From NCBI GenBank assembly GCA_001465115.1, contig CP013614.1, forward strand, positions 1,364,001 through 1,428,000: DNA of 64,000 bases, in the 5' to 3' direction. Position 1 is the stretch's first letter, and every line of letters begins with the position of its first letter. Positions 16,054 through 22,046 of the stretch are shown one piece after another. A program made the position numbers and the translations under genes. The notes under the pieces were generated by a model. That model searched no databases and had not been told where the DNA came from. It saw nothing but the letters and a program-made list of their open reading frames with translations. This DNA comes from Enterococcus silesiacus. GTDB taxonomy: Bacteria > Bacillota > Bacilli > Lactobacillales > Enterococcaceae.

Positions 16054-16110
16054 TCCTCCTTATAGAACGACCGAGTCACAAAGGAGGAGTAAAAGTTGCT
16101 ATTTACTCCA
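16054..16110 (-). promoter_or_regulatory. TPP riboswitch expression platform with SD sequestration
   Basis: The thiT ribosome site AAGGAGGA (minus strand, 16054-16061) is exactly complementary to TCCTCCTT (16081-16088), with a 19-base loop. That anti-SD strand can alternatively be held in a hairpin of GGAGTAAAT (16101-16109) with TTTTACTCC (16086-16094). The first bases of the latter's partner belong to the 3' strand of aptamer stem P1, so ligand binding would release the anti-SD and shut translation. Confidence 0.75.
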
Positions 16111-16197
16111 TCACAATTCCTACGCTCGTACTAACGAACAGGTTCGAAGGGTTTAGAGTTATTACTCATTCTCAGCCATGGCTCCCCTTTGTGATGG
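16108..16197 (-). promoter_or_regulatory. TPP (THI-box) riboswitch aptamer
   Basis: Read on the minus strand: CCATCACAA, then GGGGAGCC, CTGAGA, then ACCCTTCGAACCTG, then CGTTAGTACGAGCGTAGGAA, closing with TTGTGATGG. CTGAGA and ACCC..GAACCTG are the conserved thiamin-pyrophosphate-binding elements, and the 9-base ends form P1. Confidence 0.95.
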
Positions 16198-16345
16198 GTT
16201 CTATTTAATTTTTAGTGGCTATCACTCATGATAACAAGTAAAGCGTAACATGTAGTTCAAAAAAAGTAAAGAAACCGCATTTAGAAAAAGGTGGTCTTCT
16301 TCCCTATTTATGCGATAAAATAGAATTAGGAAAAGGAGGACTAGC

Positions 16346-18842: not shown

Positions 18843-19814
18843 TTACAATAATTCTTTTCTTAACTCTTCATCGGTCCGATCAGATAAATATTTAGGCGCA
18901 ATATCTAAAACGGTATATGCCCCAAATTGTTTTTCCTTTGCTAAACGAACACAAGCTCTTGCATAGGCGACTAACACACTCGCAGTAAATTCTGGGTTAC
19001 TTTCTAGTTGTAATTTATATTCAATCACTTGTTTGGTGTTCTCATGCGTGGTTCCAGTGTGCAGAACCGTTCCACCATGCGGCATTGCTTGATGGTTTTG
19101 ATCTAATTCAGCCTGAGAGATAAAATGAACCTCTGTATCGTACTCAGCAAAATAATTAGGCATCGAAACAATTGCTTCGCGAATCTTGTCTGCATTTGCG
19201 CCATCATCTAGCACCACAAAGCATTCTCTGAAATGTTTATCACGAGTCGTCAGATTTACCTGCTCACCAGCTTTAAGTTTTTCGATTACGTCAGTATTTG
19301 GAACAGTATACTGCACTGCATCTGCCACGCCATTGATTCGACGTAAAGCATCAGAATGTCCCTGACTAACGCCTTTACCCCAAAACGTATTCGTTTCTCC
19401 AACTGGTAAAATACTTTGCGCATATAAACGATTCAAGCTAAACAACCCTGGATCCCATCCCGTTGAGATAATTGAGGTCGTTTGATTTTCTTTTGCCACT
19501 TGATCCACTTTAGCAAAATGTTCTGGAATCTTAGCATGGGTGTCAAAACTATCAATAGTATTAAATAAATGCGCCCACTCTGGTGTTTGTGTCGGTAAAT
19601 CTGTTGCTGAACCGCCACACAAAATACAAACATCGATCTCACCTTTTTTATCTTTGAGCTGATCCATTGTAAACGCTTGTGCCCCTTCTGTTTGGACGGT
19701 TTCAGGCGCTCTTCTTGTATACACACCCACTAACTCCATATCTTTATGTTGTTTTAGCGAACGTTCAACGCCGCGTCCTAGGTTCCCATACCCAATGATT
19801 GCCACTTTTATCAT
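18843..19814 (-). CDS. ddh: meso-Diaminopimelate D-dehydrogenase
   Basis: 323 residues with a Rossmann start (VAIIGYGNLGRGVERSLK) and the dehydrogenase signatures CILCGGSATDLPTQ, NTIDSFDTHAKIPEH and STGWDPGLFSLNR. The family makes meso-diaminopimelate from tetrahydrodipicolinate, ammonia and NADPH in one step, feeding lysine synthesis or DAP-type wall. If the host is an Enterococcus with lysine-type peptidoglycan, the lysine role is the likely one. GGAGGAATG lies just before the ATG region. Confidence 0.9.
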   Translation of the reverse strand: MIKVAIIGYGNLGRGVERSLKQHKDMELVGVYTRRAPETVQTEGAQAFTMDQLKDKKGEIDVCILCGGSATDLPTQTPEWAHLFNTIDSFDTHAKIPEHFAKVDQVAKENQTTSIISTGWDPGLFSLNRLYAQSILPVGETNTFWGKGVSQGHSDALRRINGVADAVQYTVPNTDVIEKLKAGEQVNLTTRDKHFRECFVVLDDGANADKIREAIVSMPNYFAEYDTEVHFISQAELDQNHQAMPHGGTVLHTGTTHENTKQVIEYKLQLESNPEFTASVLVAYARACVRLAKEKQFGAYTVLDIAPKYLSDRTDEELRKELL

Positions 19815-19909: not shown

Positions 19910-21490
19910 TTACGGTATAGCCAATTGGTGTTTTAATTCTGTTATAACTTTTGCCTTTTCTTCATCTGAGATACTTTGATAGGAAATACCTTCTTCGCCT
20001 GTGTAACCATCTCCAGTAAATCCTTCACCTTGCATTTGATAACTTTCAATATTCTCTAAAGCTTTCTGATAGTTTTTCATCAATAGCATCATTTGATCCA
20101 GCGTCATATCCGTTTGTCCATTTTCCCCAATTACATCAAGCAACTCTTGGTAACGAAGGACATTTTTCACAGAAGTTAATTCTTTAGTAAGCTGAATCGT
20201 TACCTCACGCTGTCTTTTTTGTCTGCCATAATCACCTAGTGGATCTTCATAGCGCATTCGTGCATATTGTAACGTTTCCCAACCACCTAAATGTTGCTTT
20301 CCTTTTGGATAATGAATCCCTTCGGCGTCAAATTCAAAATCATTATTCACTGTCACACCACCGACAGCATCACTCAAAGCCGCTAAACCGTCCATATTAA
20401 TGACAAAATAATGATTGATTGGAATCTCTAAATAATGCTCGACGGTTTCGATCATCATCTCATCGCCACCGAAAGAATGTGCGTGATTGATTTTGTCATA
20501 AACGCCATCTTTACCGATAATCTCTACATATGCATCTCGTGGAATACTAGTAATCGTTGTTTTCTTCAATTGATTATTGACAGTTGCGACCATTATCGTG
20601 TTTGCTCGAAAATCTGTTTTTCGCTTTGAATCATTTGCAATACCTAAAAGTAAAAAACTAACTGGCTCACTCTTGCCTAGCTCTACAGATTTGGTTTCTC
20701 GATTTAGTGGTTGATACATTTTATCCGCTGTCTGTTGAACGTTTTTGAACACGTTGGCACCATATACTGAGGCCCCGGCAACGATTAGTAAAAGGAACGT
20801 TAAAAATCCTAAAATTGTTTTCTGAATAAATCTTTTTTTAGAATCCGTTGTTGCAAATTTTCTGCTTAGATAAAATCTTTGCAGGCAAATATATGAAAGA
20901 CTTACCCAAGCATAACTTAAAAGAAAACCGCCAATTACATCACTAGGATAATGCACTCTTAAATAAATTCGACTTAAACCTATCACAAGAGCATAAATGA
21001 TCAGTCCATTTTTTAATAATCGATAATTTGGGGATTTTGTTTTGTAAATCGCTTGGACACTCAACAGAATCGAACATACCAAGCACATCGCCAAAAGAGA
21101 ATGCCCGCTTGGAAAACTATAGGACGTTTTTTCAACCAATTGTGTGACATTGGGTCTTGTTCGGGCAACCAGATGTTTGATAATAAAACCTAAAGCACTG
21201 ACAACTAAGACATTGCTGCTCATCCAAATTGCCAACAATTTATGTTTATTTCGCCATAAACCAAATGAAACGAGCAAACTTATGATAAAAACAGGAACAA
21301 TCGTTGCAATTTTAGCAAAGACGATCACAAAATCAGTGATTCGCTCATTGGGTTTCCAATCAAATCGATAAATCGCAGCATCTAAATTGTTAAACCATGA
21401 GACATTTTTTACCACTAATAAGGTTAGTACTGAAAAGAATACAATGCTTAATATAGTAGGCGTAAATGTTTTTTCTTTCAATTTATTCAT
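19910..21490 (-). CDS. PAP2 phosphatase - LCP ligase fusion protein
   Basis: 526 residues with two catalytic domains. Residues about 10-210 form a multi-helix PAP2 lipid phosphatase with KHLVARTRP, SFPSGHS and SRIYLRVHYPSD, the three motifs of undecaprenyl-pyrophosphate phosphatases. After another membrane helix near 226-246, residues about 275-450 form a LytR-CpsA-Psr domain with TSIPRDAYVEI, DKINHAHSFGG and YARMRYEDPLGDYGRQKRQR. LCP enzymes move polymers such as teichoic acids from a lipid carrier to peptidoglycan. Inference: one protein couples polymer attachment with carrier recycling. An M-box riboswitch lies upstream. Confidence 0.9.
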   Translation of the reverse strand: MNKLKEKTFTPTILSIVFFSVLTLLVVKNVSWFNNLDAAIYRFDWKPNERITDFVIVFAKIATIVPVFIISLLVSFGLWRNKHKLLAIWMSSNVLVVSALGFIIKHLVARTRPNVTQLVEKTSYSFPSGHSLLAMCLVCSILLSVQAIYKTKSPNYRLLKNGLIIYALVIGLSRIYLRVHYPSDVIGGFLLSYAWVSLSYICLQRFYLSRKFATTDSKKRFIQKTILGFLTFLLLIVAGASVYGANVFKNVQQTADKMYQPLNRETKSVELGKSEPVSFLLLGIANDSKRKTDFRANTIMVATVNNQLKKTTITSIPRDAYVEIIGKDGVYDKINHAHSFGGDEMMIETVEHYLEIPINHYFVINMDGLAALSDAVGGVTVNNDFEFDAEGIHYPKGKQHLGGWETLQYARMRYEDPLGDYGRQKRQREVTIQLTKELTSVKNVLRYQELLDVIGENGQTDMTLDQMMLLMKNYQKALENIESYQMQGEGFTGDGYTGEEGISYQSISDEEKAKVITELKHQLAIP

Positions 21491-21719
21491 GTAATAAATC
21501 CCTTCAATCTTATATTCAATCTGATCATAAGCTCACAATTAGTCTACTTGAATATCTAGCAACAATAGTGATAAAGTAAAAACCGCTGGAACTTATTCTC
21601 CCAATAAATAGCAGCGAAGTATTCAGCGATTATTTCCGTCAAAGAGCACTCCTAAAAAACGCAGGCAGATAACTAAGACGTTAAAAATGAAGGAAATAGA
21701 CAGGCTATTTACTAAAATA

Positions 21720-21757
21720 AAAAAAGTCAAACATTTTTTCCTAAGACGTTTGACTTT
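21720..21757 (-). terminator. Terminator in the M-box leader
   Basis: On the minus strand AAAGTCAAACG and GTTTGACTTT arms are followed by a T run. It lies 8 bases after the aptamer and 230 bases before the PAP2-LCP start, as expected for a transcription-attenuating riboswitch platform. Confidence 0.75.
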
Positions 21758-21764
21758 CAATCAA

Positions 21765-21920
21765 TCTCATCGTCTGAGTTTTAGCACTATACAACGTAAA
21801 GAAAAATTCTTAGCTATTTTATGAAAAGCCTTAATTCGACAATTCTTGTTTTACACATTGGCGTCTTTCGACGTTTCTGCGCAATAGCCTATGTTTGTAT
21901 AGGAGCCTCACCTAACAAGG
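21765..21920 (-). promoter_or_regulatory. M-box (ykoK) magnesium riboswitch aptamer
   Basis: Minus-strand elements in order: CTTGTTAGGTGAGGCTCCTA, then ACATAGGCTATTGCGCA, AACGTCGAAAGACGCCAAT, GTAAAACAAGAATTGTCGA, ATTAAGGC, and near the 3' end GTATAGTGCTAAAACTCAGA and CGATGAG. These are the conserved blocks of the M-box RNA found upstream of magnesium transporter genes such as B. subtilis mgtE. The whole order and spacing is kept, so I consider it a true aptamer rather than a chance match. Confidence 0.9.
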
Positions 21921-21945
21921 TTATTTATCTATTTATTTTGTATAA

Positions 21946-21974
21946 AGAATACCGCTGGAAAGAGTTTTATTCAA
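21946..21974 (-). promoter_or_regulatory. Candidate promoter of the M-box leader
   Basis: TTGAAT (21969-21974), 17-base spacer, TATTCT (21946-21951) on the minus strand, about 25 bases before the aptamer. Confidence 0.5.
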
Positions 21975-22046
21975 GTTATTTTAAGCGTCTTTATTTTTTC
22001 TTAATTTAAAATTAAGTAAATTTATGGCACCATTTTTTTGAGTAAA

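Follow-up and report, generated by a model that had tools for sequence, protein, structure and literature searches.

A 64,000-nucleotide stretch of the Enterococcus silesiacus genome (contig CP013614.1, positions 1,364,001 to 1,428,000; hereafter, the window) carries on its minus strand an M-box magnesium riboswitch whose first downstream gene encodes a fusion of a PAP2 phosphatase with an LCP wall-polymer ligase. M-box RNAs are known chiefly for regulating magnesium uptake, where they switch on pumps as magnesium falls. Our analysis indicates that the M-box of the window probably belongs to a set of three through which this genome makes wall-synthesis genes subject to magnesium, as a module for conditions of low magnesium that would answer to two controls and in which the LCP enzyme is perhaps magnesium free. 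A preliminary description of the locus had proposed magnesium-controlled wall-polymer attachment or lipid-carrier recycling. The heart of that proposal has held up, in that a magnesium riboswitch stands before a wall and lipid-carrier gene and does so across genera, but its scope was too narrow. The target is a distributed module that comprises two SEDS polymerases, a PAP2 phosphatase, an LCP protein and, in some genomes, PBP5. Because the arrangement is conserved across genera, the wall gene is not a chance neighbor of the M-box. Across enterococcal genera, M-boxes stand before peptidoglycan polymerases, a carrier-lipid phosphatase, wall-polymer ligases, and PBP5. In the mostly open-access literature that we searched, we found no description of SEDS, LCP, PAP2, or pbp5 genes being controlled by an M-box, although an Rfam list for E. 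faecium and E. faecalis (Supplementary Table 4 of PMC7724050) may already include some of these M-boxes.

The M-box leader and the regulon of the genome

The leader and its gene are made up of the following parts.

21946-21974, minus strand: weak promoter TTGAAT-17-TATTCT, recognized by eye
21759-21926, minus strand: M-box magnesium riboswitch aptamer (Rfam RF00380, 163.3 bits, full length)
21714-21758, minus strand: intrinsic terminator serving as expression platform (hairpin 21758-21722 and a T-rich tail to 21714; -12.1 kcal/mol alone)
21572-21718, minus strand: second structured leader element, with a hairpin and T-run at its end (about 21631-21578, by eye)
19910-21490, minus strand: PAP2-LCP fusion of 526 amino acids, with PF01569 at residues 92-205 and PF03816 at residues 295-438

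The covariance-model search that the preliminary description had called for places the aptamer in the M-box family. The match covers model positions 1-169 of 169 with an E value of 1.2e-37, and its score lies so far above the gathering score of 44 that a chance M-box is ruled out. Its ends fall within 6 bases of the interval assigned earlier (21765-21920). Among 14 aligned leaders of the same genus, the aptamer is almost invariant, while the spacer to the gene ranges from 52 to 211 nucleotides. The terminator, which had been placed at 21720-21757, was recovered with slightly wider limits, and both arms and the T-run are kept in all 14 leaders. An alternative duplex between the terminator's 5' arm and loop and the 3' strand of the aptamer is predicted at -9.3 kcal/mol, so the leader contains, by prediction, a terminator that excludes pairing with the aptamer. 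The promoter fared less well. Its CTTGAA is found in 14 of 14 leaders, but we call it weak because a consensus scan does not report it. As for the gene, it is an intact PAP2-LCP fusion, and no open frame of annotated size, transporter or otherwise, lies between it and the aptamer, as had been claimed.

The spacer holds the second structured element. Of its 38 predicted pairs, 9 are changed on both sides, with a covariation term of only -0.73 kcal/mol. When a covariance model of the element was run against 22 genomes of the genus, matches with an E value of 3e-16 or better fell solely at the nine PAP2-LCP leaders from which it had been built; there was no convincing further copy, the weaker matches having E values of 0.0085-0.092. 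A known riboswitch is ruled out, since no Rfam family matches the element at its own cut-off, and so is a dispersed repeat, since the genome has no further copy of the element. The element may act as an additional attenuator that responds to its own signal.

The M-box of the window is the highest scoring of five in the 3.93-Mb genome (116.6-163.3 bits). Two of these head P-type ATPase operons, one reading MgtC-GNAT-P-type ATPase and the other P-type ATPase, and three head wall genes: PAP2-LCP, SEDS-SEDS (399 and 399 amino acids), and LCP (304 amino acids). All three wall units have a terminator-like hairpin behind the M-box. The genome contains four SEDS, four LCP, three PAP2, and one BacA/UppP genes, and two of the SEDS, two of the LCP, and one of the PAP2 genes lie behind M-boxes. 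Assuming 3,700 genes and 8-20 wall genes, the probability that three of five M-boxes precede wall genes by chance is about 1e-6 or less. With typical M-box (ykoK) riboswitches, the wall leaders share the aptamer in sequence and structure and a terminator directly behind it, and transporter units exist in the same genome; the wall units differ in targeting peptidoglycan and wall-polymer enzymes and in having an extra upstream operator. The unit MgtC, GNAT acetyltransferase, and P-type ATPase (L082, G000:C1:1310000-1320000) is recurrent, and an E. faecalis plasmid record (L229) has an M-box followed by MgtC and GNAT.

Wall genes and SEDS polymerases behind M-boxes

M-boxes were found in 101 of 105 Enterococcaceae genomes and in 175 of 246 genomes of the order, some of the family included. 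Within the family we examined 101 of approximately 250 M-boxes (a hand-summed total), picked in part for nearby PAP2 or LCP matches. Wall genes follow 68 of the 101, a count that is not a prevalence because the loci were partly chosen by that proximity. The entry points of the survey were M-boxes and PAP2-LCP genes; SEDS and LCP genes outside M-box units were sought in the E. silesiacus genome only.

Among the matches listed in a protein search of the 105 genomes, 32 genes from four genera cover both PAP2 and LCP, one of them broken (G073). All 32 lie in M-box units, 15 as the first gene and 17 as the third, after two SEDS genes. The same parts recur in other arrangements. Genus g6 has unfused SEDS-SEDS-PAP2-LCP at five loci, G050 has SEDS-SEDS-PAP2, two genomes have an M-box followed by PAP2 alone, and the nine g1 units examined read M-box-LCP-SEDS-SEDS. 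Wall genes thus change their order, their partners, and their state of fusion yet remain behind M-boxes, which argues for functional linkage rather than chance synteny. Outside the Enterococcaceae, wall genes stand at 4 of 40 M-boxes, which were picked among the matches listed before their neighbors were known (LCP-SEDS, SEDS, and, in two cases, P-type ATPase-SEDS-SEDS). Individual records repeat both patterns: an E. gilvus record has a 159.5-bit M-box, two SEDS genes, and PAP2/LCP, and an L. monocytogenes record has a 153.3-bit M-box followed by P-type ATPase, SEDS, and SEDS. Besides the leader of the window, 28 wall M-boxes were scanned for terminators, and hairpins resembling them stand behind 26, two of which are weak. 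A scan of 70 nucleotides found 23 of 28, and a wider scan of the rest added three: the LCP unit of this genome (-16.3 kcal/mol), G072 (-10.9 kcal/mol), and the SEDS-PAP2 unit of G026 (-20.3 kcal/mol). Two loci have more than one M-box. At L056 (G002:C32) two M-boxes are divergent, one before PAP2-LCP and the other before a SEDS gene, and at L151 (G241:C16) tandem M-boxes about 160 nucleotides apart precede a P-type ATPase.

The SEDS proteins of these units are distinct from the core FtsW and RodA. In a tree of 90 SEDS rows, which comes with a long-branch warning and does not include E. faecalis FtsW2/RodA2, the sequences fall into two halves, FtsW-like (the first genes of the pairs) and RodA-like (the second genes). 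In each half the enterococcal M-box SEDS form a supported group apart from this genome's core FtsW or RodA, and the Listeria-type pair lies outside; one f8 row joins the enterococcal group in the FtsW-like half. E. faecalis FtsW2/RodA2 (OG1RF_11070/11071) are likewise a pair of extra FtsW- and RodA-like SEDS proteins; they are active polymerases, CroR dependent and expressed at low levels in standard medium (PMC12724132). The authors of that work name metal availability among possible triggers, and neither "magnesium" nor "riboswitch" occurs in its main text. Our findings would offer a concrete, testable condition under which FtsW2/RodA2 are needed, in line with the possibility raised there.

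A related arrangement brings in PBP5, the penicillin-tolerant enzyme of low affinity. Two g4 genomes (G025, G026) have M-box-SEDS-LCP-PBP5 and a third (G033) has M-box-LCP-PBP5, with terminators of -15.8 to -19.3 kcal/mol behind all three M-boxes. The G025 protein matches solved PBP5 over 678 of 678 residues, and the SEDS proteins of the G025 and G026 units fall in the FtsW2 group. An E. faecium Dallas 5 plasmid record, p5_70kb, has a 138.9-bit M-box followed by FtsW, LCP, and a penicillin-binding transpeptidase of 679 amino acids. The operon ftsW-psr-pbp5 is known, and in E. hirae and E. faecium its genes are reported to be transcribed together (PMC5059904). It shares with the units described above an FtsW2-group SEDS and an LCP protein behind a strong M-box, and it differs in that PBP5 takes the place of RodA2 and PAP2 and in that its LCP retains both magnesium ligands. 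On the 70-kb plasmid-labeled record (L228, NZ_CP065930.1), where the order is M-box-ftsW-psr-pbp5, psr is annotated at 251 amino acids, versus 293 in E. hirae.

Two more distant systems bear comparison. In Listeria, lmo2689-lmo2686 (a magnesium-type ATPase, FtsW2, and RodA3) also has an M-box followed by paralogous SEDS genes, for which envelope-stress control is reported (PMC6686043), and the L. monocytogenes record described above agrees with this published operon; it differs in having the transporter in front and no PAP2 or LCP within the stretch examined. The main text of that paper contains neither "riboswitch" nor "M-box." The pe20 M-box of Mycobacterium tuberculosis likewise precedes genes other than classical transporters, but it is described as a translational platform that works with Rho, and its genes are tied to magnesium uptake (PMC12810186).

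The upstream operator and the LCP metal site

Upstream of the promoter, all 14 same-genus leaders have in common an AT-rich box, which in the window reads as follows.

21988-22004, minus strand: operator TTAAGAAAAAATAAAGA, a direct repeat TTAAG-N6-TAAAG and candidate CroR-type response-regulator site, from leader comparison and a genome scan

The operator is exact in 13 of the 14 PAP2 leaders, the window included, and has one mismatch in the other. The whole genome contains four perfect matches to its core, TTAAGNAANNNTAAAGA, compared with 20 for the reversed control. Three of the four lie at the three wall M-boxes, starting 78, 172, and 191 nucleotides upstream, and the remaining one falls within an open reading frame. 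Within the Enterococcaceae, a search of the 250 nucleotides upstream that tolerated up to two mismatches detected TTAAGNAANNNTAAAGA at 56 of the 68 wall M-boxes, at none of 28 transporter M-boxes, and at none of 4 others, against a background of 3.5% of shuffled stretches. Other families gave matches in 3 of 32 units that begin with a transporter gene, in 0 of 2 that begin with a wall gene, and in 0 of 6 of other kinds. These counts use 140 of 141 stretches, since those shorter than 150 nucleotides or containing N were dropped (L210), and classes were set by the first recognized gene within 800 nucleotides, so that two Listeria-type units count as transporter. Because the pattern was drawn from wall leaders, including that of the window, its presence there is partly circular, and it is the absence elsewhere that is informative; Fisher p-values overstate independence because the species are related. 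At L053, the locus of the broken gene in G073, PAP2-LCP is split into two reading frames and both the M-box and the operator are intact.

In E. faecalis, the part of the pbp4(5) promoter that responds to CroR includes TTTATTAAGAAA (PMC9426447), and TTAAGAAA is common to that stretch and the operator, a resemblance of sequence only. CroR is the natural candidate for the putative regulator. Since the CroR-like operator occurs at wall M-boxes and not at the family's transporter M-boxes examined, the wall units are probably responsive both to envelope stress and to low magnesium.

The PF01569 match of the PAP2 half scores 76 bits and has the catalytic motifs, which in 60 fused homologs are kept as PSGH (60/60), KX6RP (58/60), and RX5HX3D (60/60); the Ser of the classical SR is present in only 25 of the 60. 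The LCP half (PF03816, 151 bits) has the substrate arginines. A pattern spanning PRD, RMR, and DYGRQ is found in 57 of 60 fused homologs, and the other three retain the arginines. In the LCP domain and its substrate arginines the protein resembles TagU, TagT, and Cps2A; it differs from them in being joined to PAP2 and in two positions of the metal site.

20600-20602, minus strand: Asn297 codon, where LCP enzymes have the second magnesium-coordinating Asp (RxD), from LCP comparison
20636-20638, minus strand: codon for Ala285, aligned with the first magnesium-coordinating Asp (GxD), from alignment to PDB 3qfi

In LCP enzymes Mg2+ is coordinated by two aspartates, which in Cps2A are D234 and D246 (PMC7831098, PMC11337229), and both are reported in all known members except two (PMC11337229). 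In our Cps2A alignment these residues fit GxD and RxD, 12 apart. By comparison, PAP2-linked LCP proteins read GIAND...RAN. The RxD position is Asn, and GIA is found, at the same 37 of 37 loci (32 fused and 5 unfused), whereas RxD carries Asp in 24 of 24 other M-box LCP proteins. Among the 120 homologs listed, the pattern GIAN[DN]...R[AS]N occurs in 74, of which 60 are fused and 14 unfused; another 45 carry Asp, and 1 is unresolved. The PAP2-linked LCP therefore lacks Asp at one or both coordinating positions, depending on the alignment at GxD, which may be shifted: a gapped alignment to TagU would put Asp287 there rather than Ala285. A further aspartate, Asp293, is kept in all 74 Asn-type homologs. 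The protein would be either a Mg2+-free enzyme, an enzyme whose site has been rebuilt around Asp287 or Asp293, or a pseudoenzyme, and the residue changes yield a direct biochemical prediction.

Proposed mechanism and competing explanations

From the leader sequence and the known behavior of the M-box class, we infer that at high magnesium the aptamer would fold and the terminator form, and that at low magnesium the freed 3' strand of the aptamer would pair with the 5' side of the terminator, so that transcription would continue. Low magnesium, probably together with envelope stress, would thereby turn on the spare SEDS polymerases, PAP2, and LCP. By the known roles of these families, the module would carry out outer-face steps that use the carrier lipid. 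Specifically, SEDS polymerases of the FtsW2/RodA2 type would release undecaprenyl pyrophosphate, PAP2 would convert it to the monophosphate, and LCP would attach a wall polymer. PAP2 phosphatases need no metal, while UppP is metal dependent. Because PAP2 is metal free and the LCP ligands are altered, the module may be a backup for wall synthesis when magnesium-dependent enzymes lose their cofactor. More generally, the gene arrangement suggests that enterococci alter wall construction under magnesium shortage. A fuller version, in which an M-box and stress-operator regulon switches in SEDS polymerases, a metal-free phosphatase, and a magnesium-free LCP, along with the PBP5 operon in the E. faecium/E. 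hirae group, is tentative, and we hold it with clearly less than even confidence. If it is true, control of PBP5 by the same switch would link magnesium supply to beta-lactam tolerance, and a magnesium switch may account for part of the effect of growth medium on the beta-lactam response.

Several observations weigh against magnesium control of the wall units as outlined here. In 9 of 14 leaders, a second hairpin and T-run lies between the M-box terminator and PAP2-LCP and must be overcome for read-through, which therefore stays a prediction. Terminators are weak in G001 and G002 (-2.0 and -5.2 kcal/mol), G006 has none before the gene, and G152 has only a weak one beyond the gene start; three of these four deficient leaders precede a first-in-line PAP2-LCP. 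Given the lack of a good terminator, such units outside g1 (L056, L057, and L058, in G002, G006, and G001, respectively) may use another platform. Furthermore, 12 of 68 wall M-boxes have no operator match, and the operators of the SEDS and LCP units of this genome, at 191 and 172 nucleotides upstream, are far from the apparent promoter. The main evidence to the contrary is that a lacZ fusion to the Listeria operon promoter did not respond to MgSO4 or EDTA at 300 ug/ml in rich medium (PMC6686043). That experiment may have depleted magnesium too little, or its fusion may not have included the leader.

These points bear differently on three other explanations. The second hairpin, as a conserved structured element with its own T-run, would fit a scheme in which M-box control ends with the leader, PAP2-LCP has a promoter of its own or is governed by the second element, and magnesium carries little weight. 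Yet the spacer is variable and shrinks to 52 nucleotides in G078 and G082, where the ribosome-binding site follows close behind the M-box terminator. Promoter-like sites in the spacer are not above shuffled expectation in a consensus scan, and the SEDS frame of other genera begins no more than 170 nucleotides from the aptamer, as judged by longest-frame starts. We consider this scheme improbable. Less probable still is descent from an operon of M-box, ATPase, and wall genes that lost its ATPase and left the wall genes as passengers. The order M-box, P-type ATPase, SEDS, SEDS in Listeria is what such an ancestor would look like, but wall and transporter genes never occur in one run in the 101 Enterococcaceae units, and behind M-boxes the wall genes have been split anew, joined, and rearranged, a history that would not be expected of passengers. 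Comparison of relatives, proposed in the preliminary description as a check for a transporter lost between aptamer and gene, does not support such a loss at this locus within the Enterococcaceae: 17 relatives have two SEDS genes there. In view of the Listeria order, a loss at a deeper level may have occurred.

A stronger contender, though in our judgment still unlikely, is that the wall units are mainly CroR-type stress genes whose output the M-box trims, with magnesium as a proxy for envelope damage and with an LCP that uses another substrate or metal or is a regulatory pseudoenzyme. The resemblance of the operator to the CroR-responsive pbp4(5) stretch speaks for it, as do the responses of FtsW2/RodA2 and of Listeria FtsW2/RodA3 to wall antibiotics (PMC12724132, PMC6686043), and Asp293, conserved in 74 of 74 homologs, could rebuild a metal site. 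However, it leaves the retention of an M-box before each of the 32 listed PAP2-LCP genes unaccounted for, and the arginines persist in an LCP domain that is altered at both metal-ligand positions. Magnesium control of a wall-synthesis module, with envelope stress as a probable second input, is the reading that we prefer.

Two neighboring features of the window complete the picture of the locus. A diaminopimelate dehydrogenase gene (18843-19814) follows PAP2 here, as it does in all but one of the 14 same-genus loci, and a promoter-like TTGTCA-18-TATAAT, recognized by eye, suggests that it is transcribed separately. At 16100-16198 an ordinary TPP riboswitch (63.6 bits) precedes a gene for the thiamine transporter ThiT.

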